DNA from: a candidate division KSB1 bacterium | GTDB lineage: Bacteria > Zhuqueibacterota > Zhuqueibacteria > Residuimicrobiales > Krinioviventaceae | Length of the DNA stretch: 64,000 nt | NCBI GenBank assembly: GCA_034521575.1 | Contig: JAXHMJ010000005.1 | Span: 1,240,001-1,304,000, forward strand | Direction of reading: 5' to 3' | Shown: positions 47,496 through 64,000 of the stretch, piece by piece | Position numbering within the stretch: the first letter of the stretch is position 1 | Layout: each line of letters starts with the position of its first letter | Translations under genes and position numbers: made by a program | The notes under the pieces: generated by a model | Told to the model about the DNA's origin: nothing | Database searches by the model: none | What the model saw: the letters and a program-made list of their open reading frames with translations, nothing else

Positions 47496-50400
47496 TCATT
47501 CGATCATGACATATTCGGTTTCGATGCGATAGTTGTTCTGCTTCACCTGAGGCAGGGCCGCCACAGCCGCTTTGTAGCGGTCCAGCTGGTCTACTTCACT
47601 CACCGCGCCGGTTTTAAAATCAATGATCCGGATGATTTTTTTCTCTGTATTGACCATCAGACGGTCAATACGCAGTTCGGCGCCGTCCGGCGCGTACAGA
47701 GTACATTCGGTAAACACGCGGCTGTCAAAATCCTGAAACAGTCGGGGATGCGCGCCGACGAACCGTTCGGTCCGATTTAGCTGATCATTCAACTCTTTTA
47801 GAGGGACCAGACTGCCGTAATACTCGCTGGTTTTTTCGCGCGCATACCGGCGCTGCGAATCCGTGTCCTGACGGATGAATGATAAATAATAATGAATAAT
47901 ATTGCCTTTTTCCGCGCTGCGGTGGTCTACAAACGCGGTTTTCAGATCGACATGCCGGATGCGCTGCCGCAATTCCTGATCCGGGACGCGATAGTCTGCA
48001 TGGTTCATATCCAGAACATTATCCAGAATAGTATCCTGGACCGATTCCGCTTCGGTTTCCACCGGCAGTTCAGGCGGCAGTATCTGTCCGGATTGCCCGA
48101 CAATCTTTGTATCCGATTCATCCCGTTGTAAAGCGCCGGCATCTTTAAAATAGCGCACGACAGCCGCAGCCGTGTCCCATGATGGTTTCGGTTTGGGCTT
48201 TTCATTTGATTTGGGCCTGGGTTTGCTAAAGCCGTCTTTATTCTTAAAAGTCAATCCCAGGAACAAATTCTCTCTGGCGCGCGTCATGGCCACGTACAAT
48301 ACATTCAATTCTTCTATCGCTTCACGACGAATTTTCTCATCCTCCAAAGGCGCAAAACGGGATGTCGTTTCCACAATTCCCTTGTAATTGTGGGTGATAA
48401 AAAAATTACGCGTGCGCAGTGTTTCCGGATCAAGGTCATACAATGTATGAATATCAAGACTGCCCGATGGCGTGCGCGGCGACAGCTCCCAATACAGAAA
48501 CACCGAATCGAATTCCAGGCCTTTGGATTTGTGAACCGTCATCAGCTCGATTGCGTTCATTTCCGCGGTCGCGACCTGTTGCAGAGACTCTCTGTCTTTC
48601 TTGTCCTCACACCAGGTTGTAAATCCCTGCAGGGTGATGGGAACCTGTCGACTGCTGTTCATAAACTCAGTGGTAATCTCGACAAAGCGGTTGATATTCT
48701 TGAGATCACTTTGCAGCGGGAACAGCTGCGTCACATTGTAATGTTCCAGTATGCATTTGACGACATACAATGGGTCCGTCTGCCGGCTTAGCTTGGAAAA
48801 CAATTGCAATGCTTTACGGACCGCCGGTATATCCTCACACCGCTGCATCAATTCGTTTAAAAACAGCCTGTCCCCGGCCTGCAGTCCGCGGTCCAAAAGC
48901 GTTTTCAGGTCCATCGTATCCAACAACACATAATCGGAGCGCAGAAACTCGCATAAATCAAAGACATCCTGAAACACCAGCAGTTTCAAGAATTTCATCA
49001 GCGGCTTGATCGCCCGATGCTCGAAAATCGGATTCGACGACTTGTGTACATAGGGAACCTGCAGCTCATCCAGAATCCGGGCGATATGTTCCAGTTGTTT
49101 ATTCTGGCGCACAAGCACAGCCGATCGAGAAGGATCGATTTCGCCGGTTTGTATACGGCGGTAAATCATAGTTTCAACAAATTCCCTAGTCGCCGTATAA
49201 TCATTGATCTCATGCTCATTATCGCCGACGGCGGACAAATTGCGCAGCCACAATTCGATATATCCCTGACCATTTTTGCGATGCGGTTGCACGCATTCAT
49301 ACGGCCAGTCAATATCGAAATCCGTCAGAGCGGCATGCAGCATCTCATCGGAATAGACCTGATTGATAAAGTCGATGATGCGTTCATCGCTGCGAAATGA
49401 AGTCCTCAGCTGCTGTTGATCGCTGTCCACTGAACAGACGCGGCATGCTCAACAGCAGATCGCGCTCACCGCCGCGCCAGCCGTAAATGGCCTGCTTTTC
49501 GTCTCCCACCACGATGACGCCTCCGTATTCCTTGATGCCGGCGCCGCTGATCACTTCGCGGATGATGGGCATTAAAATCCGAAACTGGATCAGACTGGTA
49601 TCCTGAAACTCGTCGATCAGCATAAACCGGTATTTGGCGGTCAGGTGCTCGTAAAAATCATTGGTCACCGTATCATCGGTAACCATGGACAGTTCAGGAT
49701 CGTAGAGAAATCGATACGTATAGAATGAAATATCCGAGTGGGAAAACACCCGATTTCTCAGGGTAAGCTCGTCATATTCCCGGAGGATTTTCCGGATCAA
49801 TTCGCGGATTTCCCGTTCTTCCGGAACCGCCAGCATCCAAAGCAGATACTCTGCAAGAGATGCAACAAATTCCTGATGCGCTGATAAAAAATGATCTTTG
49901 GCTTCTGCGTATTTGTTTGCTCTAAACACTTTGCCACCGTTCCAGAACGGATCAAACAGCAGATGGCCTTTCTGCTCGAGATGATCACGATCCTCCACCG
50001 CCTGCAAACACTCGTCAGATAGATGTTCGAGGGGGGTATCGGGTTCAATATTGAAAAAGTCTTTTGCATTTTTTTTTAACAAGGCATTGATCCGCGCATC
50101 CGCATGAAATTTCAGCACGTGCTGCTGGAACTCGATGAGCAGGGTTTTTAGCTGTTGACGAACAGCTTGATACAGGGCGTCTGCTTTCGGCGGCGTGTGT
50201 TCAAAATCGCGAGCCCCGGATTCGTCGATCATGTGATACAGCCAGCGCTGCTTGATGGTGGTGTTGAGAAATTGCTCATAAGCCTGGATGGTCTTGCGTT
50301 CTCCGCGTTCCAGGAACGACCGAAACACTTCCCAGAGCTCGCTGTCGTTCAGCAGCATATGAAACAGGTTGTCTTTGACCGCATCGTCCATGACATTATC

Positions 50401-50817
50401 GATCTCGTGATCGTAAATATGCAGAAACGGTGCGATAATTGATTTGAACACCGTATTGGTGAACGAATCAATGGTCATGATCTTCACCTGGTGCTTGTTG
50501 CTCAGCATATCATGATAGCTCCGGCGCAGAAAATGCAGATCATCGCGGCTCAGAGATCGACCGAGAACACTTTCGAGGTTCCGACGCAGCTCTTCACTTT
50601 CACCTTTGGGATTCACCAGTTCATTCAGATGCGTAAAAATACGATCCCGGATCTCTGCCGTGGCTTTGCGGGTAAAAGTGATCACCAGTATTTCTTTGTA
50701 TTGACAGCCCAGATGCCGGTACTGACACAACAGGGACAGGTATTCAAGAGACAATCGATAGGTTTTACCGGTTCCGGCGCTGGCGCGGATGACACGTTTG
50801 ATGAAATTTTGTTGCAT
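47496..50817 (-). pseudogene. AddA-like UvrD helicase-nuclease, frameshifted
   Basis: The first frame (50817-49384) has Walker A in RASAGTGKTYRLSLEYL, ILVITFTRKATAEIR, MLIDEFQDTS and VGDEKQAIYGWRGG. It breaks after SMPRLFSG. One extra base at 49431 joins VDSDQQQLRTSFRSDE in the second frame. That frame carries motifs IV-VI (MTVHKSKGLEFD, LYVAMTRARENL) and the C-terminal nuclease ELRIDRLM ... IIRIIDFKTG, ending at 47496. The restored protein is about 1106 aa, normal for AddA/RecB. It works with the AddB-like subunit from the other strand. A sequencing error is likely since all motifs are intact. Confidence 0.88.
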
Positions 50818-50870: not shown

Positions 50871-51385
50871 TTAAAATTCTCTGTTGATAAAATAGGAAAA
50901 AGATTTATTTCTTATTTGGGCTATTTCAATAGAATAGTTTTTGAGCAACTCTACCATAAAATCAATTCTGGAATCAAAGCTATTTGGTATTTGCTGATTA
51001 AATTGTTCTTTTGTCAGATCATTTGTGTCTTTGAACGGTTTTATTTTGAGTTGTCTTTGTTTTTTCTCGGCTAATCCGGCCAAATACCAACTCTCGATTT
51101 CTTTGATCACAACTTGTATCCTGCCCTGATCAAGATTCCTGTATTTTTGAGCCAATTTTTGCTTCTTTGCAGTTACGCAGGGAGTAGAATTTATATCACA
51201 GATAAAATAATACTCGTCATCCATCGACTTGATTTTATAAAATTCTCGATCCATTTTTTGTTTTTGGATGCATAATGCAAAATCTGTACATCATAGTTTT
51301 TATTTAAAAGTGGTTTTACTATTCTCGCAACAAATCTCTCATCATCCGGACCTTCGACAAACAAATACATCAGTGTTTTGGACAT
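50871..51385 (-). pseudogene. TOPRIM-like / DUF4276-like small protein, frameshifted in an A-run
   Basis: The first frame opens MSKTLMYLFVEGPDDERFVARIV, with an acidic VEGxxDE motif like the first TOPRIM strand. One A is missing in the run at 51254-51259 (T6 on the plus strand). After it the next frame continues FYKIKSMDDEYYFICDINS (acidic second motif) and IKEIESWYLAGL, reminiscent of the (R)ELEAWxLAD block of DUF4276. The whole is about 171 aa. It starts three bases after the AAA ATPase gene's stop. ATPase plus TOPRIM partners occur in OLD-like and PARIS-type defence systems; a nuclease role here is inference. Confidence 0.6.
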
Positions 51386-51387
51386 GT

Positions 51388-52632
51388 TTATCCCCCAAGC
51401 AAATTTTGAATATAAAGCTCTTCAACTCCGATTTCATTCTTTAAAAATGTTTTGACCTGCTGTTGATCTGCGGGACGCGTGATTTGAGAAAACCCGTCTG
51501 CATCCCGGGAAACCAGCAACAACGAGTCCAGATCAGCATGGCGTACCATTTCGGTATTGTGGGTTGTGGCAATAATTTGTTTTTGCTTCGAGGCATCCTT
51601 CATCATCTCCGCAACTTTGGCGATGAGATGCGGATGAATATTGCGTTCCGGTTCTTCGATAATGGCCAGGGGTTTGTTTTCAAAATATAACGCCACAATC
51701 AAGGCTGTGATATTGATTGTCCCGTCCGAAACCAGCGAGACGGGAATGGATTGGTCCGAGTACGTTTCCTGCAGTTTGAAAATCAATTTGTCGGCAGATT
51801 TCTCCACACTTAGATCCGAAATAAACGGCAACAGATCATTGACCAGATTGTACAATTTACGCCGCTTTGCATTGTTTTCTGTAAGGTGTTTAAGAATGAT
51901 GGACAGGTTGCTGCCGTCTTCTTCCAGCTCTGCCTTGCCTGTTATGGGAGTGGCCTTTTTGGGGAGTTTGGGATCAAAATCATAAATGGAGATTCTTTGA
52001 AAAACATTTTTAATAAAAGATAGAGAAAGGTAAGAATTTTGGATAAGTAGCTCATGCGAATCCAATGCATTTCTATTTAAATATGAAAGTAAAATATCAT
52101 TTTTTTTGATATTTACTTCATCTGGTTTATTTATATCTATTGATATGTCATTATAGGTACGAAGAATTTTTATATTTCCAGAGCCAAGAGATTTAAGTGG
52201 TTTTACACTATTATTTTCCAAGTATACTTGTTCATATTCAACTGTGTGGTTCAATAATTCATTTTTAATAACAAAATCACTGTTTTTATTAAAAGATATT
52301 GATAATTCATAAATAGTTTTATTAATAAAGACCTCGGTGAAATAATCACCGGAAGCATTAAACAATGAACTTGAATCTTCATCACTTTCAATTCTAAGCA
52401 CAAACTCATTTGATTCTGCGGACGTAATATTGCGTAAATACTCTGCCCCACCTTGTGCTGATATCGCATTCTCCAAACCATCTTTTGCAATATCATGTAA
52501 AAACTTAAAAATCTGCACAAAATTCGATTTCCCCGCCGCATTGGCGCCAATGATCAAATTCATATTTCCGAGCTCGAGTTCCAGATTCTTAAAGCTCTTG
52601 AAATTTTTCACACTGATCTTTTTAATGCTCAT
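51388..52632 (-). CDS. AAA15/OLD-like ABC-type ATPase
   Basis: 414 aa. Walker A is IIGANAAGKSNFVQIFKFL (residues 27-45), the signature region SLVSDGTINITALIVALYF, Walker B LAIIEEPERNIHP, and the switch histidine ATTHNTEMV. It is of the SMC/RecF-like AAA_15/AAA_21 type found in OLD, PARIS and retron systems. No nuclease domain is fused; the small TOPRIM-like gene directly downstream may supply it. The middle section (codons 60-220) is AT-richer than the neighbouring genes, a possible sign of transfer. Confidence 0.85.
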   Translation of the reverse strand: MSIKKISVKNFKSFKNLELELGNMNLIIGANAAGKSNFVQIFKFLHDIAKDGLENAISAQGGAEYLRNITSAESNEFVLRIESDEDSSSLFNASGDYFTEVFINKTIYELSISFNKNSDFVIKNELLNHTVEYEQVYLENNSVKPLKSLGSGNIKILRTYNDISIDINKPDEVNIKKNDILLSYLNRNALDSHELLIQNSYLSLSFIKNVFQRISIYDFDPKLPKKATPITGKAELEEDGSNLSIILKHLTENNAKRRKLYNLVNDLLPFISDLSVEKSADKLIFKLQETYSDQSIPVSLVSDGTINITALIVALYFENKPLAIIEEPERNIHPHLIAKVAEMMKDASKQKQIIATTHNTEMVRHADLDSLLLVSRDADGFSQITRPADQQQVKTFLKNEIGVEELYIQNLLGG

Positions 52633-52812: not shown

Positions 52813-55077
52813 TTATTTTTCAGCCATTAATTTTTTACGTATCCGGGACACCCCGGGCGCAGCGGCCCCGACCAGCAGTGCCAGCAATGCCGCGCCACTG
52901 ATCCAGAGTCCGGTGACGAACGACAGGGGTTGATAGAGAAACTCAATTCGGTGTTCGCCGGGCTGCATAAACACGGATTTCAGACAAACATTGGTTCTAT
53001 AGCTTTTCACCCGCTGACCATCAATAAAAGCGCGCCAACCCCGCGGATAATAATTCTCACTGATTACCAGACAGGACGGCTGGTCCACAAAAACGTCCAT
53101 CTGATAACGACAAGCATCCCGCCGATGCCAGGTGATATGGATACTGTCCGGCGGATGCACAGCCAACGGCGGCGGTTCGAATAACAGCGCGGTTACTGCT
53201 GGATTAAAATTCGCGCTTTTCATGCTATCCAACGCAGCCTTACTATCAGACACCACCATCACGGTATCGCTGAAAAAGGCAAACGGCAGCGCCGTTGTAT
53301 TGCGGTAGACAAATGGACTCTTTTTATTCAGCAATTTATAACGCGCATCCTGAATGCGCAACGCTGAAATGATCGTTCCCACGTTAAACATATCCATACA
53401 GGCATAATCCAGAACAAGCCGTGCCGGCATAACCTGCTGCGCCGGGACCGGCTGTTCCAGCACATCTCCCTGACGAAAAACAGTGCGGTAATATTTGGCC
53501 AAAAAAGGATTGCGTATCCAGGGACGGTCCGGCAGATGATAACCGGTTTCCCTGAGGATTTCATAATAATGTTGCAGACAGTTGCCGCCCCCGCCGGTGA
53601 TGTTCAGTCTTGCAGACGCTGCAGACGCGTGAGAGTTAAAAACACGTTTATTCGTATCCTCCCTTTTAGAGACAGCGGCGGGTTCCGCCTGATTCGAATG
53701 CAGGGCATTTAAACTCTCAAAATTCACCCAGGTAAAATCCGCAACAAGCAAAAACAGCACCAGTCCGCTCCATAGATACAGATTCATTCGTCTTGCATTG
53801 CTGACCAGAATCGCAATGACCGCAAACAGAAACAGATGCAGCGCCCACTCTTCCAGTATCTGATAATACAATACTGTTTTCTGGTTTAGCTGCAACAATC
53901 CAAAAAATTGAATAAATGCATCATAAAGCTGCGACCGGAAAACAAGCAGCGCCGAAAACAAGAGGACAAACAGCATCCCCCAGATAACGGCATAGGATTT
54001 AAAAACCGACTGATTTTTATCTCGCGGAGCCAAAACCGCATCCAGTCCCAACACACTGCCGGCGAGAAACACCAGAGGCAAAGCGACAATGGCGATCATC
54101 GAATGATCTGTAAACAGCAGCCCCACACAAAGCAGCAGCCCCGCAGCCACGGCGAATCCTGCTTTTTTATATTTGGGGAGCATCAGGCCGAAAAAATAAA
54201 GCAGCCCTCCGGTGTAAAGCAGGGGCAATGAAAAATGTGGATGCGTACTTTGCGTCAAAGAAGGCAGCAGTACACTGACGATCTGTAGCGGAAGCACAGT
54301 CAGTTTCTCATGCAACGGTACGGCGGCGCCCACATATTCAAGCACCGGCAGCCAGGTATAAGCGGACAGCAGCAACGCACTCAGAAACAAGGCCGGAACA
54401 AGGACAAGTTTTCCCAGCAATCGCACCAGCGGCAGTTTTTTAAATAATCCCATAGCAACAGTCAGAAACAAGGCGGACCACAGGGTCACAATGATGACAG
54501 GCACACTGCCGCGCTGCAGCAGAACCGCCAGCGCCAGAGTACAGACGGCAAAGGACCACGGACGCAGATGGCTGAACAATCGGTACAGACAAACAAGAAA
54601 CAAAGGCAATAGCGATACGGCCAACAGATGACGCCCGTATTCAATTCCGCTCATTAATAAAAATCCGGGCAGGTTGTAAGCAAGCAAGGCAGTTATGAGC
54701 ACGGCCAGGGGATGCAGATTAACACGCCGGCCCAGCATGTAAATCCCGGCGGCAAACAGTAAAAAATTCAAGAGAATATAGAGGAGATAGATATTGACAA
54801 AACCGGACAGCGGCGTGAGCAGAGAATAAAGCAAGGCATCAGGAATGCTCAATGAAGCGATGCCGTTGGTGTCGCTGTAAACCGGAAGCCCCATAAAGGC
54901 ATCCGGATTCCACAGGTCTACAGCATCCCGTCCCTGAAACAAAATTTCCGTAAAAATGCGATCCGGCTCCGGCGACCAGCCAAACGCCTGGAACACCGCA
55001 TAAAATCCTGAGAGAATCAATATGGACAGCAGAAAAAATACAAGCCACAGCCAGCCATCACGATGATTCGGCATCAT
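52813..55077 (-). CDS. YfhO-like multi-pass membrane protein
   Basis: 754 aa with about 12 or more hydrophobic helices through residue 460, then an extracytoplasmic domain and a last pair of helices. The C-terminal block NYYPRGWRAFIDGQRVKSYR, then QPGEHRIEFLYQP, is a hallmark of YfhO family proteins, which resemble GT-C glycosyltransferases and may add sugars to lipids or polymers outside the membrane. It is the last gene of the polysaccharide operon, starting 20 bases inside the acetyltransferase gene. Confidence 0.8.
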   Translation of the reverse strand: MMPNHRDGWLWLVFFLLSILILSGFYAVFQAFGWSPEPDRIFTEILFQGRDAVDLWNPDAFMGLPVYSDTNGIASLSIPDALLYSLLTPLSGFVNIYLLYILLNFLLFAAGIYMLGRRVNLHPLAVLITALLAYNLPGFLLMSGIEYGRHLLAVSLLPLFLVCLYRLFSHLRPWSFAVCTLALAVLLQRGSVPVIIVTLWSALFLTVAMGLFKKLPLVRLLGKLVLVPALFLSALLLSAYTWLPVLEYVGAAVPLHEKLTVLPLQIVSVLLPSLTQSTHPHFSLPLLYTGGLLYFFGLMLPKYKKAGFAVAAGLLLCVGLLFTDHSMIAIVALPLVFLAGSVLGLDAVLAPRDKNQSVFKSYAVIWGMLFVLLFSALLVFRSQLYDAFIQFFGLLQLNQKTVLYYQILEEWALHLFLFAVIAILVSNARRMNLYLWSGLVLFLLVADFTWVNFESLNALHSNQAEPAAVSKREDTNKRVFNSHASAASARLNITGGGGNCLQHYYEILRETGYHLPDRPWIRNPFLAKYYRTVFRQGDVLEQPVPAQQVMPARLVLDYACMDMFNVGTIISALRIQDARYKLLNKKSPFVYRNTTALPFAFFSDTVMVVSDSKAALDSMKSANFNPAVTALLFEPPPLAVHPPDSIHITWHRRDACRYQMDVFVDQPSCLVISENYYPRGWRAFIDGQRVKSYRTNVCLKSVFMQPGEHRIEFLYQPLSFVTGLWISGAALLALLVGAAAPGVSRIRKKLMAEK

Positions 55078-55615
55078 TCATCTCCCCGCTATAGTGATCC
55101 AGTTGCCGTACAATTCGGGCCGGTACGCCGGCAATCAGAATATCGCCCTGGGGAAAGCTGTGTGTGACCACGGCGCCGGCTCCGACGATGGTATGATCAC
55201 CCAAAGTGACACCGGCGGTAACAATCGCGCCCGCTCCCAGCCAGCAGTTCCGACCGATACGGATGGGTTCAGCTTTAATATACTCTCGGTAATCGCATAA
55301 ATTATGGTTCATGCTGATCACACTGACGCGCGGACCGATCCAGGTATTCTCGCCAATCATGATGCCGTTTCGTCCATCCAGATAACAAAACGGCGACAGT
55401 CCGGGACACCGGCTGCCGCGCTGAATGCGCTCCGGCGATTTGACCACGGACGACGGATGTACCGGCCAGGGCACATGAGCGTTTTTACGCCGGATTTTCT
55501 GCAGTACAGCCTGTTTGAGCAGTTTACCAGCCGGAAACTGGGAGTCACGGAATGCTGGTCCGGCCAAACAGCCCGCCAAAAAATAAGCAATTTTACTGAT
55601 CATAATCTTCCGCAT
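55058..55615 (-). CDS. hexapeptide-repeat O-acetyltransferase
   Basis: 185 aa. The left-handed beta helix is seen in GENTWIGPRVSVISMNHNL, IRIGRNCWLGAGAIVTAGVTLGDHTIVGAGAVVTHSFPQGDILIAGVPARIV (residues 115-170). This is the WcaF/NodL/maltose acetyltransferase type, with the catalytic His in SMNHN. It likely O-acetylates the sugar repeat or a lipid-linked intermediate in the cytoplasm. Start ATG 55615 overlaps the flippase gene by 23 bases; an ATG at 55603 is possible. Confidence 0.85.
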   Translation of the reverse strand: MRKIMISKIAYFLAGCLAGPAFRDSQFPAGKLLKQAVLQKIRRKNAHVPWPVHPSSVVKSPERIQRGSRCPGLSPFCYLDGRNGIMIGENTWIGPRVSVISMNHNLCDYREYIKAEPIRIGRNCWLGAGAIVTAGVTLGDHTIVGAGAVVTHSFPQGDILIAGVPARIVRQLDHYSGEMNDAESS

Positions 55616-56852
55616 GTTTGATAAAATAATAAATTGAAATATTATAAAACAGGTAAAATAATCCAGCCGTAATGGACAGCGCCAGCAGCATGGACCGCGG
55701 TGTCTGATTAAAGATAAACATAGCCAGCAGCCGCAGAATCAGAGACGCCGCAATGAGATAAAACCCGACTTCCTGCCGATTGATAATGCTGAATGTAGAG
55801 CTGATGGGTGAATTGATAAACCGGAAAAACATCCAAAAGGTGATAATCTGCATATAAACACCAGCTTCTGCAAAATCTGAGCCGAAATAAAGAGAAGCAA
55901 ACTGCGGACCCAGCAGCAGAATGAACAACAGCGGAATGACTGCAAATAATGCCAGTTTTTGCACCGTGCTTTTATAGACCCCGATCAGGGCTTCCTTGCT
56001 GTTGTGCATGGCTTCCGAGGCGCTGGCGAAATAAACCTGCTGAACCGACCGTCCCACCATAAACAGCGGTATATTGACAATCCGGTCTGCCATGGAATAC
56101 AGCGCCACAATCTCGGGACCAAAAAAGCGGCTGAGCATAAACACGGGCAGCTGCAGACTGAGGGTGTTGAGAAAAACCATCGACGTATTAATAGTCGGGA
56201 ATTTCCTGTACTGTTTGGCCAACCGCCACAGATCAGCAAGCCGGGTTTTGTAGACCACCAGATGCATACGCAGGATGATCACGGAAGCCAAAAGGTACCC
56301 CAGAACCTGTGCAATGAGCAATGCCTGACTTGAAGTCCAGAACACACCGAACAGTACAGCCAGCACCTGTGTAGAAGCCACCTGAACCACCTTGTTCAGG
56401 GCCAGCACGCCGAACCTTTTCCGCCGCACCAGTATATACTGCACCGCCTGCCAGAGTCCGAACAGAAACACCCCCAGTGCAATATAATGCAAAAACGGCT
56501 GCAGGGAATCCGCGTTCATCCAGTGCAACAGGTCAGGGCCCAGAAAAAGCAGCACCATTGAAAACAAGACAGAAAACAACAGCAGAGCCAACAGTGACAA
56601 CAGCGCGAGGTCGTTTCCTTCCCGATCCTCTTTTGGAAGAACAATCGCCATTTCATATTTCAGAGAAGCAATCACACCAAAGGTGGTGATGGTAGAGATG
56701 AAAATCTGCCAGTCCCCGAGATTCTCCTTGGTGAACAACCGGGTCAGGATGGGCGTGGCAATAAAGGTCGCAACATGGGCAAACGCAGTGCCGGAAAACA
56801 GTTTGACCACATTGCGTGTGAAATCGGATTTAATGACAGGTATCTTGAGCAT
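55593..56852 (-). CDS. Wzx-like oligosaccharide flippase
   Basis: 419 aa with 12 or more hydrophobic segments and the polysaccharide-synthase (MATE-like) opening NVVKLFSGTAFAHVATFIATPILTRLF. It would move lipid-linked repeat units across the inner membrane, so the operon likely uses a Wzx/Wzy-type route. A polymerase (Wzy) is not obvious in the window. The gene lies 11 bases after the FemAB-like gene. Confidence 0.85.
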   Translation of the reverse strand: MLKIPVIKSDFTRNVVKLFSGTAFAHVATFIATPILTRLFTKENLGDWQIFISTITTFGVIASLKYEMAIVLPKEDREGNDLALLSLLALLLFSVLFSMVLLFLGPDLLHWMNADSLQPFLHYIALGVFLFGLWQAVQYILVRRKRFGVLALNKVVQVASTQVLAVLFGVFWTSSQALLIAQVLGYLLASVIILRMHLVVYKTRLADLWRLAKQYRKFPTINTSMVFLNTLSLQLPVFMLSRFFGPEIVALYSMADRIVNIPLFMVGRSVQQVYFASASEAMHNSKEALIGVYKSTVQKLALFAVIPLLFILLLGPQFASLYFGSDFAEAGVYMQIITFWMFFRFINSPISSTFSIINRQEVGFYLIAASLILRLLAMFIFNQTPRSMLLALSITAGLFYLFYNISIYYFIKHAEDYDQ

Positions 56853-56863
56853 GCGTGTCCCGG

Positions 56864-57838
56864 TCAGATAAGAGTAAAGGGGAATTTCTTTTTATGGATA
56901 ACAAAATACGGCGTCTGTCGGGCTCCGAAACCGCGGACAAAGCGCTCGATCGGTTCGATCATACTGCCTTCAAAATCAAATTGCGCGGTCACTTTGGACG
57001 CGAATTGTATAGCAGTCCACATCAGAAGCGAACTGGCGCCGCTGTTTCGCAGTTCGGGATCAGCTCCGCCCATCAGGTAATAGGCGCTGAACGCATCCCA
57101 GGCCAGATAGAGGACGGCATGTTTGCGTCCCTCATCATCCACGGCCGCCCAAATCTTTCTACACTCCCGACGCTCACAGGCATCATCAACGCGCTTCAGC
57201 AAGTCAAAGGAATAAGACGGTGTCTCATTTTGACGAGAAAAGGTCATCTTGTTCAGACGGTAAAATTCCTGCAGGTTCTTCTCCGGTCTGATCTCCAGCC
57301 GGCGCTCAGCCTTGCGGATTTCCCGACGAATATTGTTGCGAAATCCCTTGTACACCGCATCCGTATCCGAAATATCCGGAATGATATAGGAATAGCGAGT
57401 GGTCTGTTTATAACCTTTCCAGTAAAACGGCAGCCAGTTGGTTAATTCATACGAATACTTTTGCATAAACCGGGGCGACGGCGGAAGCTGTTCGATCAAT
57501 TCGCTTAAAATATCCTTTTCAAAGGACAACCGCCGGGTCATCTTTTGCTCCGGCGGATAATCAATATAGATATGATACCACGGCGTCAATTCCGGCATTT
57601 TATACACCTGAAATCCCGCCAGACGTCGCCGTGAAAAAGGCAGCGCAGCGGCAACCTGGTTATTACGCATAACCAGGGCCACATCCCAGTTCTCGGCTCC
57701 GGCGGCAGCATCCAGCCACCAGGGTTGTGAAAACAGCCGGACGGCAGGATTGTTTCGGCAAAACTCTCGATAGTTTTCTTTATTTTTCAATAATCCGATC
57801 CAATATGGTCTGTATTTGTTCCAGTTCTTTTTCTTCAA
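56864..57838 (-). CDS. FemAB/GNAT-like acyl or aminoacyl transferase
   Basis: 324 aa, cytoplasmic. FRNNIRREIRKAERRLEI (about residues 166-183), AVLYLAWDAFSAYYLMGGADPELRNSGASSLLMWTAI and FDFEGSMIEPIERFVRGFGA are the GNAT/FemAB (Acetyltransf_6) pattern found in exopolysaccharide loci. It may transfer an acyl or amino acid group to an amino sugar, perhaps one freed by the deacetylase. Its ATG lies 59 bases inside the sulfotransferase gene; a TTG near 57785 is a shorter alternative. Confidence 0.78.
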   Translation of the reverse strand: MKKKNWNKYRPYWIGLLKNKENYREFCRNNPAVRLFSQPWWLDAAAGAENWDVALVMRNNQVAAALPFSRRRLAGFQVYKMPELTPWYHIYIDYPPEQKMTRRLSFEKDILSELIEQLPPSPRFMQKYSYELTNWLPFYWKGYKQTTRYSYIIPDISDTDAVYKGFRNNIRREIRKAERRLEIRPEKNLQEFYRLNKMTFSRQNETPSYSFDLLKRVDDACERRECRKIWAAVDDEGRKHAVLYLAWDAFSAYYLMGGADPELRNSGASSLLMWTAIQFASKVTAQFDFEGSMIEPIERFVRGFGARQTPYFVIHKKKFPFTLI

Positions 57839-58736
57839 TATGCTCGCCCTTTAAGGGGCGGGACGGCGGAAACGATTCGGGGATAGACGTCAAATCCGCG
57901 TCCGCCGGTATGTCATGCCCGGTCAAAAATTTACCGATCGCCTCCAGTTTTTGAACCGGATTGGTGCACAGCTTGGCATAATTCACCTCATGCAGCCGGT
58001 TGTTTTCTACTTTTTGCAGATCGCGTTTGATATTCATTTCAGTATAATAGACCTGATGACACACCTGCTCCAGTTCGGACATTTTTTTTATCTCGGGATA
58101 CTCTTTCGGCATCACCGACCACCAGGATTTACCTTTTTTCCTGCGGATATTTAACAGCGAAGCGGCGGAATGCACCGGATTTCTCTGCATATGAACAAAC
58201 AGAGCGTTCGGGAACATTTCCAGCAGAGGTCGGATTCTAACACTCATTTTCACATTTTTCGTCAAAAAGGGAGCGTTAAACATGTTTTCAACATTGGCAA
58301 CGAATGTAACAATACGGTTTTTCGCCGGTTTTGACAAATAATGCGCCGGTGTATAATTGAATCCCTCGCGTTTTTCATAAGGAAACCAGCGATTCCAGAT
58401 ATTGCCGGCCTCACTCGGCGCCATGGCGCCTTTTTCATAACCGTGCACACTGGAAAAGCTGGAAGAATACGACGGACATAACAACCGTCCCATCCTGGCA
58501 GCCGTTACCGGCATCATGTACCAGGTATTTGAAATATTGGGAATATAGGAAAAATGAAATGCAGACATGAGTAACTGGTACAACAGGGTGGTTCCCGAGC
58601 GCGGCGGCCCAACGATAAAAACCGGCGGCCATTTGCACAGGATGCGGCGTTTCAGGATCAGCGATTCCACCAAAGCAGTGGGCTGATGCAGAGTTGCGAT
58701 TCCCTTGTGAGCTATCACTTTTATATGATCAATCAT
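57780..58736 (-). CDS. sulfotransferase (PAPS-dependent)
   Basis: 318 aa from ATG 58736 (GGAGA six bases upstream; overlaps the deacetylase stop by ATGA). The 5'-phosphosulfate loop is FIVGPPRSGTTLLYQLL (residues 40-56 of this start), and the 3'-phosphate site is FVHMQRNPVHSAASLL with the conserved Arg and Ser. This is the family of bacterial Stf and heparan-type sulfotransferases. It would sulfate a hydroxyl or amino group of the polymer. Its place between a deacetylase and a C5-epimerase gene suggests polysaccharide sulfation. PAPS synthesis genes are not in the window. Confidence 0.88.
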   Translation of the reverse strand: MIDHIKVIAHKGIATLHQPTALVESLILKRRILCKWPPVFIVGPPRSGTTLLYQLLMSAFHFSYIPNISNTWYMMPVTAARMGRLLCPSYSSSFSSVHGYEKGAMAPSEAGNIWNRWFPYEKREGFNYTPAHYLSKPAKNRIVTFVANVENMFNAPFLTKNVKMSVRIRPLLEMFPNALFVHMQRNPVHSAASLLNIRRKKGKSWWSVMPKEYPEIKKMSELEQVCHQVYYTEMNIKRDLQKVENNRLHEVNYAKLCTNPVQKLEAIGKFLTGHDIPADADLTSIPESFPPSRPLKGEHIEEKELEQIQTILDRIIEK

Positions 58737-60205
58737 AATTGTCTCCACCAGTCATGCAACTCATCAAGCGTACACAACCAGCCGTTATGTTCGGCAGTCC
58801 ATTCGAGTATAGTGCTGTACAATTCTGAAAATCCGGACCAATCATCTGCAAACAGATCGGAATTGTGCCAGTTCACAGTCAGGCAGGCCCGGTTGATGCG
58901 CGTTTCTTCCAGCAAGTCAAAGACCACCTGGTGCGAATTTGCCGCGCTCAGGCCCTGTTTGCTTTCCAGAAACAGTACCGTGTCCATCAAAACAAGCGGA
59001 ATTTCGATCAGGGACATTTCCTGCTGTGTATCCGGATCCCAGGGATGATAGGGAAAGCCGGTTCCACAGCGGTATCCCGGAGCATTCGAGAATCCGACTG
59101 TCGAATCATACGAAAACCCGGCGTCCTGCAAAATCCGCCAGGTCATCCCGGAATCAAAAGTCAGGTAATGCTGGCGGCAGCCGTTCACGGTTTTCCCGAT
59201 GACCCGCTCCAGGCCGGATTTTTCATGCTGCAATTTCTCGGCATTCCTGTATGCACCGGAGGTTCCATGCAGCCCAATAGCTGCCCCCGCCTTGTCAAGC
59301 GCTGAAATACCCCGCTGCAGTCGACCGGATGTTAATGAATAACCCGGATCAATGGATGAACGCCGCTGCTGGACAAAAAAGAAGGTGGACGCGGCACCGT
59401 ACTGCGATTCCATTCGGGTGATGGTTTTGAAGTTACCGGCCCAGTTTTCAGGGCGTGCCATCGAGCGCAGCAGATAACCGGCAGCAGGCAGAACGGCGGA
59501 TAGGCCGCGCGATTTCAGGACCGGTGCGATGGCACGGCGTGCCTTGCGCAGCGTCCAGGTGCGGATGCGGTCCACATCATGAGACAACGCCACAGCGAAC
59601 GGTTTGTGATCCGGCCAGATAGCGGGATATGGAACAATCCCGGGTACTTTCGGCGCTACCAGCAGTATCTCGATCAGCCTGACGATCCGATCCACGACCG
59701 GCATATCATAAAGTGACGACTCTCGTGTAAACTCACGTTGAAAGCGTCCGTGTTCATCGCGGGTCGCAGTGCGGTTTTCCTGTTCCAGATTCAGCATGTA
59801 AAAACAAGTTGCGATCAGATCGCAGGTACAGGAAACGGTCTGTTCGGAATGACTAACCAGCGGCTGCCGGTCTGCATCCAGGTACAATATTTCTTCAAAA
59901 GACGGCATATCTCCCGTGAACAGATAAAGAATGCGACGGGGCAAGTTCTGCGGCGCACTGCCGTCCGCCACTGCACGGCGCACATTGGCGTTGTCAGGCA
60001 GATATTCCGGAACAGCGCCGATACACAGCCGGCGTTTTCCGGATGAATCGGGCATCTTGCCGTAAAACAGTTCGGCCCGTACGCCATCCCGATCCCCCCC
60101 TGCCCCGTTAGCAAAGACCAGACCGGTCATCCGGCTCAGTTGGCGCAGGACATACCAGAACGGCGCTTTGAACGACGCCGGTCCATGATATTCGACTCTT
60201 ATCAT
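58733..60205 (-). CDS. polysaccharide deacetylase family protein (NodB-like)
   Basis: 490 aa. An N-terminal 180-residue domain (DUF7033-like from memory) precedes a NodB-type barrel: FAVALSHDVDRIRTW carries the metal-binding Asp-Asp equivalent (SHDVD), AAIGLHGTSGAYRN the His motif, and HYLTFDSGMTWRIL the Arg/Asp motif region. A C-terminal LTVNWHNSDLFADDW holds the last His. It would remove N-acetyl (or O-acetyl) groups from a polysaccharide or its precursor. No signal is seen. It overlaps the epimerase gene by four bases and the sulfotransferase gene by four. Confidence 0.85.
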   Translation of the reverse strand: MIRVEYHGPASFKAPFWYVLRQLSRMTGLVFANGAGGDRDGVRAELFYGKMPDSSGKRRLCIGAVPEYLPDNANVRRAVADGSAPQNLPRRILYLFTGDMPSFEEILYLDADRQPLVSHSEQTVSCTCDLIATCFYMLNLEQENRTATRDEHGRFQREFTRESSLYDMPVVDRIVRLIEILLVAPKVPGIVPYPAIWPDHKPFAVALSHDVDRIRTWTLRKARRAIAPVLKSRGLSAVLPAAGYLLRSMARPENWAGNFKTITRMESQYGAASTFFFVQQRRSSIDPGYSLTSGRLQRGISALDKAGAAIGLHGTSGAYRNAEKLQHEKSGLERVIGKTVNGCRQHYLTFDSGMTWRILQDAGFSYDSTVGFSNAPGYRCGTGFPYHPWDPDTQQEMSLIEIPLVLMDTVLFLESKQGLSAANSHQVVFDLLEETRINRACLTVNWHNSDLFADDWSGFSELYSTILEWTAEHNGWLCTLDELHDWWRQL

Positions 60206-61194
60206 AACCGTCCTAATTGTTTCAACGCCCGGTATTTAATCCGGTACATTTTCATAATATTGAAAAACCGGTCATAGTCCCGCCATTTTTCCGCAAACTC
60301 TTGAAATACAGTATCCCCGGTCAGGGTATAAAACAGACGCAGCTGGGTATTGACCAGTCGCAGATATCCTATAGTCGCCGGATCCGGATCCGGATAAAAC
60401 GGTTGCCTGCAGTAATTGTAGCGGATCCAGAATCCGAGATCGTATTCCGGCAGCCACTTTTTAATACTGTCCAGACCGGATTCAAAAAGCGCAGCCGCAG
60501 GCTCCGGATCATCAACGGCGCGCATATATTCATGCAAGCCGCACATGGAAAAAAAGAATCCGTCCAGCACCATGGTCGGGAAGGATGCGGGATATTCTTC
60601 GTAAAACGGACCGTAATCGGTAAAGGTGGTCACTCCGCCCTGATCCGCCGGTACTGCAAAAATGTTCAATGCATCTTTTACCACGTCAAGATACGGTTCA
60701 TGTTCCGTCATCTGAAACGCCCGCAGCAAAATGGATATCGCGCGGCTTTGGGCAAAGGCTGAAGGCCAGGGTTCATTAATTTTAAATTCCGGTTTCGGGA
60801 CGTCGGTCAGCCAAAACGTACCGCGTTCCGGTTCCCGAATGCGGTTATCATAAAACCACCTGGCAATATTTAAAAATCGTTTCCGGTCATCATCGGCTCC
60901 GCTTGCGAGATACGTATGATAAATCGCCAGGCCGTATTGACCAATCGAGATGGGGTAATAGATCATTCGACGGTCTTTCACATCGATATAACTGGGAATG
61001 ATAGGAATGCCATCGTCATTGAAAAAAAAGTTTTGACTGTGTCCGTTCAGCAATTCCTGTTCATCCATGAGGAAATAATAATATCCCAACTGCCGGGAAT
61101 GAACGTCTAAAGTTAGCTGATAAATATCAGCATCTCTTCCGATATCCTTGAGCAGTTTTTTCAGCATGAATATTGATTTTTCTAGTTTCCGCAT
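60202..61194 (-). CDS. D-glucuronyl C5-epimerase-like protein
   Basis: 330 aa from ATG 61194 (AGGA just upstream); an ATG at 61260 would add a hydrophobic stretch. Conserved GLCE-type blocks are present: YPISIGQYGLAIYHTYLASG (about residues 92-111 of the longer form), NEPWPSAFAQSRAISILLRAF, YEEYPASFPTMVLDGFFFSMCGLHEY, and DLGFWIRYNY. The family inverts C5 of glucuronic acid to iduronic acid in heparan-type polymers, or of related uronic acids. The AQSRAISxLLRA and VLDGFxFSMxGL motifs make this assignment firm at family level; activity on glucuronate is not proven. First gene of a seven-gene operon. Confidence 0.87.
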   Translation of the reverse strand: MRKLEKSIFMLKKLLKDIGRDADIYQLTLDVHSRQLGYYYFLMDEQELLNGHSQNFFFNDDGIPIIPSYIDVKDRRMIYYPISIGQYGLAIYHTYLASGADDDRKRFLNIARWFYDNRIREPERGTFWLTDVPKPEFKINEPWPSAFAQSRAISILLRAFQMTEHEPYLDVVKDALNIFAVPADQGGVTTFTDYGPFYEEYPASFPTMVLDGFFFSMCGLHEYMRAVDDPEPAAALFESGLDSIKKWLPEYDLGFWIRYNYCRQPFYPDPDPATIGYLRLVNTQLRLFYTLTGDTVFQEFAEKWRDYDRFFNIMKMYRIKYRALKQLGRL

Positions 61195-61428: not shown

Positions 61429-62514
61429 ATGACAGAACGTCTCTACGATCTGCAGCTGTCACCGCAGGAAGACAATTATCTGAATGACACACAGAACACC
61501 ACCGGTTCTTATACAAAATTTGAACTTTACTATCCCAAAATAAGCCGCGTTCAGCAAATGCGGGATATGTATCAGCTCATTCTCAAAATCGCTCAGAGCC
61601 AGGCATCCATATTGATTCATGGAGAAACCGGCACAGGCAAGGAACTGGTGGCGGCCGCGATCCAGAACAAAAGTCCACGCTCAAACAAACCGTTTATCAA
61701 GGTAAATTGCGCAGCGCTGAATGAACATTTACTGGAAAGTGAACTTTTCGGGCATGAAAAGGGGGCGTTCACCGGCGCTCTCAGTCTGCGCAAAGGCAAA
61801 TTTGAAAAATCGGACGGCGGCACCCTGTTTCTGGATGAAATCGGAGACATGGCCCTGTCCACCCAGGCAAAGATATTACGGGTTTTGCAGGACCAGACTT
61901 TTAACCGGCTCGGCGGGAACCTTGACATTCGTGTAAACGTTAGAGTCATCGCAGCCACCAACAAAGATCTGTGGGTACAGATGCAGAGCGACAAATTCCG
62001 CAACGACCTGTTCTATCGGCTGAATGTGGTCTCTCTTGCGATGCCTCCGCTCCGGGACCGCAAAGAAGATATTCCGCTGCTGGCGGAATATTTCCGCAAA
62101 AAATTTTCAGTAGAACTGCGCAAAAAGGTGAGACCGTTTACGCGGAATGCCATGCAAATGCTTATGGATCATCACTGGCCTGGCAACATTCGTGAACTGC
62201 GCAACCTGCTTGAACGAGCGATTTTGATCGCAAAACCCGGCAAACCCATTGCTTCACATGCTCTAAACATGCCGGGAACCGCCTATTTCGAGGCCGGAGC
62301 CCATGAAAAAAGGCAAGAAGAACGCGACGGAACCAATTTCAAAACATTGAACCTTCAGGAACTGGAACGGCAAGCCATCGTCACCGCGCTGATGCGCGCA
62401 AAATGGGTGCAGCGGGATGCGGCAAAACTGCTGGGCATTTCCCCCCGGGTTTTAAACTACAAGGTATCACAGCACGACATCAGACATGAGAAATGGCGAA
62501 AATATCATGATTAA
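61429..62514 (+). CDS. sigma-54-dependent transcriptional activator
   Basis: 361 aa. AAA+ domain: Walker A HGETGTGKEL (64-73), the sigma-54 contact loop GAFTGA (112-117), Walker B GGTLFLDEIGDM, and the arginine finger region FRNDLFYRLNV. The C-terminal Fis-type HTH is LMRAKWVQRDAAKLLGISPRVLNYKV. There is no receiver or sensor domain, only a 35-residue N-terminal leader, so it may be controlled by a partner or by abundance, like PspF. It is divergent from the exopolysaccharide operon. Confidence 0.93.
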   Translation: MTERLYDLQLSPQEDNYLNDTQNTTGSYTKFELYYPKISRVQQMRDMYQLILKIAQSQASILIHGETGTGKELVAAAIQNKSPRSNKPFIKVNCAALNEHLLESELFGHEKGAFTGALSLRKGKFEKSDGGTLFLDEIGDMALSTQAKILRVLQDQTFNRLGGNLDIRVNVRVIAATNKDLWVQMQSDKFRNDLFYRLNVVSLAMPPLRDRKEDIPLLAEYFRKKFSVELRKKVRPFTRNAMQMLMDHHWPGNIRELRNLLERAILIAKPGKPIASHALNMPGTAYFEAGAHEKRQEERDGTNFKTLNLQELERQAIVTALMRAKWVQRDAAKLLGISPRVLNYKVSQHDIRHEKWRKYHD

Positions 62515-63195: not shown

Positions 63196-64000
63196 ATGAT
63201 AAAGCGCATCCTCACCGCCCTGATGATGCTGGCGCCGGCAGTGTCTGTTCTGGCCCAAAGCAGCCAGGATGTATCGCAGATTGGGCAGACTCCGGTTACC
63301 GGTGCCGGTGAGAGTCAGCAAATATCAAAAGCTTCAGCCGCCCCCCAAGGCGATCTTCAGCGATTTGGCGCCAATTTATTCAGCGGCCGCACAGCGGAAA
63401 TCAATGCAGCCGGTTCTCTCCCCTCAGATTACCAGCTGGGTCCCGGCGATCAACTGGCCGTGTATATGGGTGGCAAAGTTCAGCAAGAGTTTGACCTCGC
63501 CGTCACAGCTGACGGTAAACTGTACGTTCCCAATATCGGGGTCATCTCTGTGAACGGCATGACCATGAACCGTTTTAAAGGCGAACTCGATCGCAATCTC
63601 AAACAATATTACAGCGATTATTCCCTGGACGTGATGCTGGCGCGTCCGAAACAGATCGGAGTCAGTGTCATCGGCGAAGTCACAAATCCCGGTAATTATA
63701 CCGCCGGCGCTCTGGCCGGCGTGCTTGATTTACTGATCATGGCACAGGGACCGACCCCCAACGGCTCGCTCCGCAATGTGCAATTGTACCGCCGGGACAC
63801 TCTGTATGCGCGCATCGACCTGTATAACTTTATTCTCCGGCCGGTCGGCCACAAACCCGTTGTCCTTCAGAGCGGCGACCGGCTGTATGTGCCGATCCGG
63901 CAGGCTTCAGTGGATATTGCCGGTGAAATCAACCGGCAAGCCAATTATGAACTGAATCCTGTGCAAACAGAACATTTGAGCGACCTGTTAAAATTGGCCG
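63196..64000 (+). CDS. Wza-like polysaccharide export protein (partial)
   Basis: 268 codons to the end of the window, which cuts it off. Start ATG 63196 after AAGGG; signal peptide ILTALMMLAPAVSVLAQ. The polysaccharide-export domain opens with DYQLGPGDQLAVYMGGKVQQEFDLAV (about residues 75-100), followed by SLBB-type repeats (QIGVSVIGEVTNPGNYTAG and VDIAGEINRQANYELN). It forms an outer-membrane channel for capsule or exopolysaccharide. No lipobox is seen, unlike classical Wza. It probably serves the operon on the other side of the sigma-54 activator gene. Confidence 0.9.
   Translation, partial: MIKRILTALMMLAPAVSVLAQSSQDVSQIGQTPVTGAGESQQISKASAAPQGDLQRFGANLFSGRTAEINAAGSLPSDYQLGPGDQLAVYMGGKVQQEFDLAVTADGKLYVPNIGVISVNGMTMNRFKGELDRNLKQYYSDYSLDVMLARPKQIGVSVIGEVTNPGNYTAGALAGVLDLLIMAQGPTPNGSLRNVQLYRRDTLYARIDLYNFILRPVGHKPVVLQSGDRLYVPIRQASVDIAGEINRQANYELNPVQTEHLSDLLKLA

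Follow-up and report, generated by a model that had tools for sequence, protein, structure and literature searches.

Seven clustered genes on the minus strand of the 64,000-nucleotide stretch of KSB1 DNA analysed here (hereafter, the window) probably place sulfate and an altered uronic acid on a cell-surface sugar chain. With a probability of roughly one half, they form a Vim-type operon that tailors a Wzx-dependent glycan of the cell surface, in which sulfation is conserved and a GLCE-type epimerase was recruited in one lineage. The set looks more like the known bacterial route that exchanges the acetyl group of an amino-sugar for an amino acid than like animal heparan sulfate synthesis, with a heparan-type epimerase added. 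Sulfation of bacterial surface glycans is poorly known, and this syntenic combination of GLCE-type epimerase, sulfotransferase and Vim-type deacetylase and aminoacyl transferase offers defined, testable enzymes. It could reveal how uncultured Calditrichota/KSB1 produce sulfated glycans that bear iduronate, show whether Wbp/Vim chemistry reaches beyond Bacteroidota, and yield compact single-domain epimerases for heparin-type chemistry.

Architecture of the operon and the adjoining export genes

The genes run from 61194 to 52813 and are listed below in their 5' to 3' order, followed by two plus-strand genes of the adjoining export cluster.

60202..61194, minus strand: epim, putative GLCE-type glucuronyl C5-epimerase, helical catalytic domain only (PF06662, 131 bits)
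58733..60205, minus strand: deac, predicted VimE-like N-deacetylase, DUF7033 with a divergent CE4-like domain (PF23019, 33.5 bits; NF053580, 114 bits)
57780..58748, minus strand: sulT, PAPS-dependent sulfotransferase, Sulfotransfer_3 (PF13469, 91 bits; PF00685, 31 bits)
56864..57838, minus strand: femAB, FemAB/GNAT-fold transferase, probably of VimA/pepcterm_femAB type (PF13480, 49.7 bits)
55593..56852, minus strand: wzx, MOP/Wzx-type flippase (PF13440, 69.6 bits; PF01943, 46 bits)
55058..55615, minus strand: hexAT, hexapeptide sugar acyltransferase (PF00132, 49.4 bits; WbbJ-like, 64 bits)
52813..55077, minus strand: yfhO, candidate YfhO/PgfM-like multi-pass membrane glycosyltransferase (YfhO, 25.6 bits)
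61429..62514, plus strand: sigma-54 activator, divergent, at the head of the export cluster (PF00158, 233 bits)
63196..63999, plus strand: Wza-type polysaccharide export protein, running past the window (PF02563, 50.6 bits)

Successive junctions within the operon measure -4, -16, -59, +11, -23 and -20 bp. Five of the six overlap; femAB and wzx are separated by 11 bp. The operon is real, and its description in an earlier note as seven overlapping genes was nearly right, failing only at femAB and wzx. A second TTG start of femAB, at 57790, is a better fit to the orthologues and would give a sulT–femAB junction of -11 bp instead of -59. Six of the genes occur in identical order in a relative (L041/L071), which argues that the order is not due to chance. 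Scans for promoter-like sites (18 versus 11.8 expected) and terminator-like sites (13 versus 11.0 expected) were not informative.

The flippase, acetyltransferase and FemAB-like genes that had been proposed alongside the modifying enzymes are borne out by matches to PF13440, PF00132 and PF13480. The YfhO-like protein scores just below the family cut-off (28.5 bits), with PgfM2 at 24 bits; it contains many hydrophobic segments, and related YfhO-like genes flank the loci of most relatives. No clear membrane segment is seen in the products of epim, deac, sulT, femAB and hexAT, and the first three are predicted to be cytosolic. Beyond the window, the Wza-type gene is followed by genes for Wzz, a hexapeptide acyltransferase, Wzi and Wzx, and by further genes.

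Candidate modifying enzymes

The epimerase gene encodes 330 amino acids from the ATG at 61194, in a longer frame that is open from 61260. Its recognition as a glucuronyl C5-epimerase-like protein is well founded: the C5-epim_C domain scores far above its cut-off of 23.3 bits, GLCE sequences in the PDB are matched with E = 2.4e-22 by phmmer and 7.8e-49 by profile, and the predicted structure, which is mostly helical with a pLDDT of 83.7, finds its best Foldseek matches in human GLCE (6i01/6hzz; 2.2–2.3 Å over 212 columns, E about 1e-12). The match is to the C-terminal domain of GLCE only, and the beta-hairpin and beta-sandwich (dimer) domains are absent from epim. The catalytic residues listed for GLCE, namely E499, Y500, N510, Y560 and Y578 (PMC13308652), align with E200, Y201, D211, Y259 and Y277, respectively. 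Four of the five are thus kept, including the Tyr and Glu residues for which this alignment had been suggested, but N510 is replaced by Asp. The same position is Asp in the four closest orthologues and Asn in L045. Sequence and model together make epim a putative GLCE-type C5-epimerase. According to PMC13308652, bacteria have so far yielded a single characterised glucuronyl C5-epimerase, and a literature search on C5-epim_C in bacteria returned nothing useful. Uncharacterised paralogues with PF06662 occur almost throughout the class; scanning genome contigs for the epimerase returned 10 loci with an alignment as the query and no match with a single protein.

The second gene had been termed a polysaccharide deacetylase, a label that is imprecise. 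The protein matches DUF7033 and, over profile positions 79–429 of 431, the family NF053580 of VimE, a UDP-diacetamido-glucuronate deacetylase; the score of 114 bits is far under the equivalog cut-off of 440. There is no match to Pfam NodB, and identity with the heparan-type (NDST) deacetylases was rejected on the family scores. The corresponding deacetylases of five relatives give VimE-like matches of 102–332 bits, the highest being in L121. Residues H209, D210, D212, H313, R344, H346, E401, W446 and H447 are invariant in 10 homologues. The AlphaFold model of this protein has a pLDDT of 38.6 and was left uninterpreted.

For sulT, the proposed PAPS-type sulfotransferase is confirmed by the PF13469 domain and the PAPS-binding motifs, a PSB loop (PRSGTTLL) and a 3'-phosphate motif (RNPVHSAAS). 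Comparison with the heparan sulfate sulfotransferases shows it to be no closer to these than to others: the best matches of its profile are to PKS and tyrosine sulfotransferases, whereas NDST is reached only at E = 0.0056, in an alignment over the PSB loop.

Family relationships suggest that femAB is probably an aminoacyl transferase of the VimA/pepcterm_femAB type. TIGR03019 is matched by five of six FemAB family members, the window protein itself not being among them, and by VimA (PMC7468200). The family profile also matches the aminoacyl-tRNA-dependent FemX (6snr) at 2.9e-7. Given a VimE-like deacetylase beside a VimA/FemX-like neighbour, an amino acid would be no less likely than sulfate to end up on the freed amine.

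Recurrence among relatives and genomic context

The adjacency of three enzymes resembling those of heparan sulfate maturation is confirmed in four related genomes, where epimerase, deacetylase and sulfotransferase lie side by side, but the enzymes are not obligately linked. The sulfotransferase is near the deacetylase in eight of the 11 loci from relatives, with FemAB present or not, and the epimerase is found in only four; the deacetylase is absent from half of the eight readable epimerase loci. The stable core across relatives is deacetylase and sulfotransferase, with or without FemAB, and the core of all three recurs across families of the class. Gene content otherwise differs: an eps_aminotran_1-like amidotransferase is added in L075, a Gfo/Idh-hexapeptide (WbpB-D-like) fusion in L118 and L119, and DegT aminotransferases in L116, L118 and L121.

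Genes for PAPS synthesis and for UDP-glucose dehydrogenase were sought, and both kinds were found elsewhere in the genome (APS kinase and ATP sulfurylase; UDP-Glc-dehydrogenase-type and UDP-sugar dehydrogenases). None of WbpA/B/D/E is encoded in the window operon; a WbpB/D/E-like set lies away from it, at C5:1740546-1744466, and could serve another glycan. The genome contains 147 Por_Secre_tail matches and six C25 peptidases, consistent with a type IX secretion system (T9SS) with C25-type sortase candidates. The CTD gene close to the operon (62486) was given no weight as a T9SS link, since chance alone would be expected to place one there in a genome with 147 of them. A literature search on exopolysaccharides in Calditrichota found nothing useful.

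Proposed tailoring route and its alternatives

In Porphyromonas gingivalis and Tannerella forsythia, the Wbp/Vim linking-sugar pathway comprises VimE, VimA, WbpA/B/D/E and WbpS; VimE and then VimA exchange acetyl for Ser or Gly, and the resulting amino-acid-bearing sugar anchors T9SS cargo (PMC7468200). The window operon likewise joins a VimE-like deacetylase with a FemAB-family transferase, WbpB-D-like, DegT and amidotransferase genes accompany this pair in the loci of relatives, and the host genome encodes many T9SS CTD proteins and C25 peptidases. It differs in the added sulfotransferase and, in four genomes, epimerase, in the sub-equivalog score of deac, and in the location of its Wbp genes outside the operon.

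In the preferred, Vim-type reading, deac would remove an N-acetyl group in the cytoplasm from a nucleotide- or lipid-linked sugar, most likely an amino-uronic acid, and the VimA-like enzyme could install an amino acid in its place. Sulfate would be transferred from PAPS by sulT. In this lineage, epim would also act on the lipid-linked oligosaccharide as it grows, converting a uronic acid from the D-gluco to the L-ido form by inversion at C5. Acylation by hexAT would be followed by flipping of the glycan unit by Wzx, and a further sugar may be attached at the outer face by the YfhO-like protein. Since the products of epim, deac and sulT are predicted to be cytosolic and are encoded with Wzx, they would be expected to act on the lipid-linked unit before export, not on a finished polymer. 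The Agl32 system of Halobacterium salinarum similarly epimerises a lipid-linked oligosaccharide before flipping and includes sulfotransferases (PMC13308652, PMC11980604), but Agl32 lacks the GLCE catalytic residues that epim keeps.

The product would be a sulfated, acidic, N-modified glycan, serving as capsule or exopolysaccharide or, by analogy with Porphyromonas and Tannerella, as a T9SS-anchoring glycolipid. That it is a sulfated T9SS linking glycan bearing an L-iduronate-type (C5-inverted), N-aminoacylated uronic acid appears quite unlikely; if so, heparan-type chemistry would serve to tether secreted proteins at the outer membrane. Deacetylase, FemAB and an asparagine-synthase-like amidotransferase also recall the XrtA/PEP-CTERM exopolysaccharide clusters (pepcterm_polyde, pepcterm_femAB, eps_aminotran_1), but the family scores are weak, and membership was rejected because the genome has no PF09721 (exosortase) match.

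An ordinary capsule, exopolysaccharide or O-antigen operon, whose tailoring enzymes each serve a sugar of their own and which lacks both a T9SS role and any single heparan- or Vim-like logic, is conceivable, if somewhat improbable. The flippase, acyltransferase and YfhO-like genes are generic, a Wza/Wzz/Wzi system adjoins the operon, and gene content varies among relatives; the recurrent core and the six-gene order kept in L071, however, argue otherwise.

The earlier note had favoured a sulfated, glycosaminoglycan-like exopolysaccharide that is N-deacetylated, C5-epimerised and sulfated as in heparan sulfate (by NDST, GLCE and the sulfotransferases). The GLCE fold and residues, the PAPS-dependent sulfotransferase, the precursor genes, the N-deacetylase candidate and the export cluster agree with this, as does the N-sulfated, glycosaminoglycan-like exopolysaccharide reported from Pontiella, whose cluster has a PF13469 sulfotransferase, a TuaB-type flippase and glycosyltransferases; the Pontiella text, however, names no C5-epimerase and mentions deacetylases only with fucoidan breakdown (PMC7356697). 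We nevertheless consider the heparan-like polymer unlikely: deacetylase and sulfotransferase belong to other families, the enzymes are predicted to be cytosolic and Wzx-coupled, the epimerase is usually missing where the other two occur and often occurs without them, and no GlcA-GlcNAc polymerase or heparosan synthase-like gene was seen among the cluster genes read.

It is more doubtful still that the epimerase converts a Vim-type diamino-uronic acid to its L-ido or L-gulo form, giving an N-aminoacylated and possibly sulfated linking sugar. The epimerase is the adjacent first gene of the Vim-like operon in four genomes, and Asp in place of N510 in the closest operon clade alone suggests a changed substrate, but the same subfamily occurs in loci that have no deacetylase (G004, L074, L076 and L077). 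That the PF06662 protein is no epimerase in vivo, being inactive or catalysing another reaction on uronates, would accord with the missing GLCE domains, the N510D replacement and the uncharacterised paralogues throughout the class, but is very improbable given that E499, Y500, Y560 and Y578 are all kept.

Gene content of the operon and the epimerase

The operon runs on the minus strand from an ATG at 61194 to 52813. Its seven co-directional genes, which stand at gene level as the earlier note had proposed with small corrections needed, are separated in 5' to 3' order by −4, −16, −59 (or −11), +11, −23 and −20 bp. Pfam assigns them as follows.

Gene 1, minus strand: C5-epim_C protein (epim)
Gene 2, minus strand: DUF7033 protein (deac)
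Gene 3, minus strand: Sulfotransfer_3 protein (sulT)
Gene 4, minus strand: GNAT/FemAB-like protein
Gene 5, minus strand: Wzx-type flippase
Gene 6, minus strand: hexapeptide acyltransferase
Gene 7, minus strand: YfhO, weak match

Just downstream, at 50871-52632 on the minus strand, an AAA/ABC-type ATPase matches PADLOC HEC-01A (173 bits) and is followed by a small gene with a weak HEC-01B match; the pair is a candidate defence system. A single UvrD-type helicase gene (47496-50817, minus strand) is split into two overlapping frames, corresponding to its N-terminal and C-terminal halves, by a frame break or assembly error.

Epim (330 aa) matches human and zebrafish GLCE with E=2.4e-22 as a single sequence and 7.8e-49 as a family profile, and corresponds to the helical catalytic domain only. 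The predicted structure (pLDDT 83.7) returned 6i01/6hzz as top Foldseek hits, at 2.2–2.3 Å over 212 columns. The catalytic residues described for GLCE (E499, Y500, N510, Y560 and Y578; PMC13308652) align with E200, Y201, D211, Y259 and Y277 of epim. Their loss, named beforehand as grounds for rejecting the earlier note's reading, is not seen, since four of the five are kept; Asn510 is replaced by Asp in epim and its four closest orthologues. Among named records, those with the closest epimerases are metagenome-assembled genomes from Calditrichota and from candidate division KSB1. Cytoplasmic epimerisation and then sulfation has a precedent in the archaeal Agl32, which acts on a lipid-linked tetrasaccharide that is sulfated afterwards (PMC13308652), although Agl32 lacks the GLCE catalytic residues.

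The deacetylase and its FemAB-like neighbour

Deac, previously read as a polysaccharide deacetylase, has no Pfam NodB match. Its match to NCBIfam VimE reaches 114 bits against a cut-off of 440 and spans nearly all of the profile, and its homologues in relatives score 102–332 bits. Residues H209, D210, D212, H313, R344, H346, E401 and W446–H447 (window numbering) are kept in 10 deac homologues, a pattern that would be expected for a CE4-like metal deacetylase; among solved structures there is a weak match to a polysaccharide deacetylase (3rxz, E=0.0017). The FemAB-like family profile matches the aminoacyl-tRNA-dependent transferase FemX (6snr, 2.9e-7), and five of its six members match TIGR03019, as does VimA (PMC7468200). 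For P. gingivalis and T. forsythia the proposal is that VimE deacetylates 2,3-diacetamido-glucuronate at C2 and that VimA then adds Ser or Gly; the resulting sugar joins cargo of the type IX secretion system (T9SS) to LPS. The pathway also employs the asparagine-synthase-like WbpS, an eps_aminotran_1 match (PMC7468200). The heparan-sulfate analogy drawn earlier, with N-deacetylation, C5-epimerisation and sulfation on one polymer, holds for the epimerase alone, whereas deac and the FemAB gene point to Vim-type chemistry.

Conservation of the locus among relatives

C5-epim_C proteins of some kind occur in 47 of 60 relatives, most at ~30% identity, and many of these genes, where read, sit in a class-wide block of epimerase, GT4, M23 peptidase and rhomboid protein. 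The block, a near-universal feature of the class with an uncharacterised function, is seen at L047, L048, L050, L051 and L054, and in the window's own genome (G000) at C5:840000-844588 (L006/L007); it holds a second, divergent C5-epim_C protein, with an optional rhomboid protease.

Window epim falls in a subfamily apart from these (47–66% identity), for which 12 loci were examined, some with flanks ended by contig ends. Deac adjoins the epimerase in four of these (the window, L041/L071, L042/L075 and L044/L072), all of which also carry a sulfotransferase; L041/L071 has six genes in an order identical to the operon. L045/L077 has the sulfotransferase only, and no deac was found in the readable flanks of G004, L074, L076 and L077. 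Counted from deac (n=11), a sulfotransferase lies within ~10 kb at 8 loci, a FemAB homologue is present at 6 and the epimerase at only 4; by chance a sulfotransferase is expected within 10 kb of ~3% of places, because the whole 5.26-Mb genome has seven PF13469 matches. Vim-like deacetylation and sulfation therefore form the stable unit, to which the epimerase was added in one lineage. Further genes at the relatives' loci encode an eps_aminotran_1-like amidotransferase, DegT aminotransferases, GT4s, YfhO-like proteins and a Gfo/Idh–hexapeptide fusion resembling WbpB+WbpD.

Sulfation, export and possible products

SulT is a PF13469 protein with intact PAPS motifs. Its profile does not separate N- from O-sulfation, because the solved structures nearest to it are sulfotransferases of the polyketide-synthase and tyrosyl-protein types, whereas the match to NDST is confined to the PSB loop and has E=0.0056. 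At C3, G000 encodes ATP sulfurylase (two frames) together with APS kinase, and three nucleotide-sugar dehydrogenases in the genome exceed their subfamily cut-off, one being nearest to the UDP-glucose 6-dehydrogenase TuaD. The sulfurylase (L056) is seemingly split by a frame break, of a kind that recurs in this long-contig assembly.

PAPS is cytosolic, no clear membrane segment is found in epim, deac, sulT or the FemAB and hexapeptide proteins, and Wzx is encoded in the operon; on these grounds the simplest reading, we infer, is that modification would take place on a nucleotide- or lipid-linked unit before flipping by Wzx. Por_Secre_tail is matched 147 times in G000, which also has six C25 peptidases and WbpB/D/E-like genes at C5:1740546–1744466; this is compatible with, and not proof of, a T9SS-linking glycan. 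As the main alternative, the product may be a capsule or an EPS that leaves the cell through the divergent Wza/Wzz/Wzi cluster next door. No exosortase was found in the G000 genome; an EPS cluster at C5:555756-557612 (L123) nonetheless includes a gene with strong homology to eps_aminotran_1 (690 bits; its cut-off is 817).

A further glycan cluster at C5:1319632-1328435 (L003/L004) encodes a sulfotransferase broken in two frames, a PMT-like membrane protein, GT4s and a WecA-like transferase, and is adjoined by a C25 peptidase gene that is also two-framed. At C5:1348711-1351566 (L005), ~48 kb beyond the operon, two neighbouring genes read from sequence as sulfatases, so that sulfated glycans may be broken down as well as produced by this organism.
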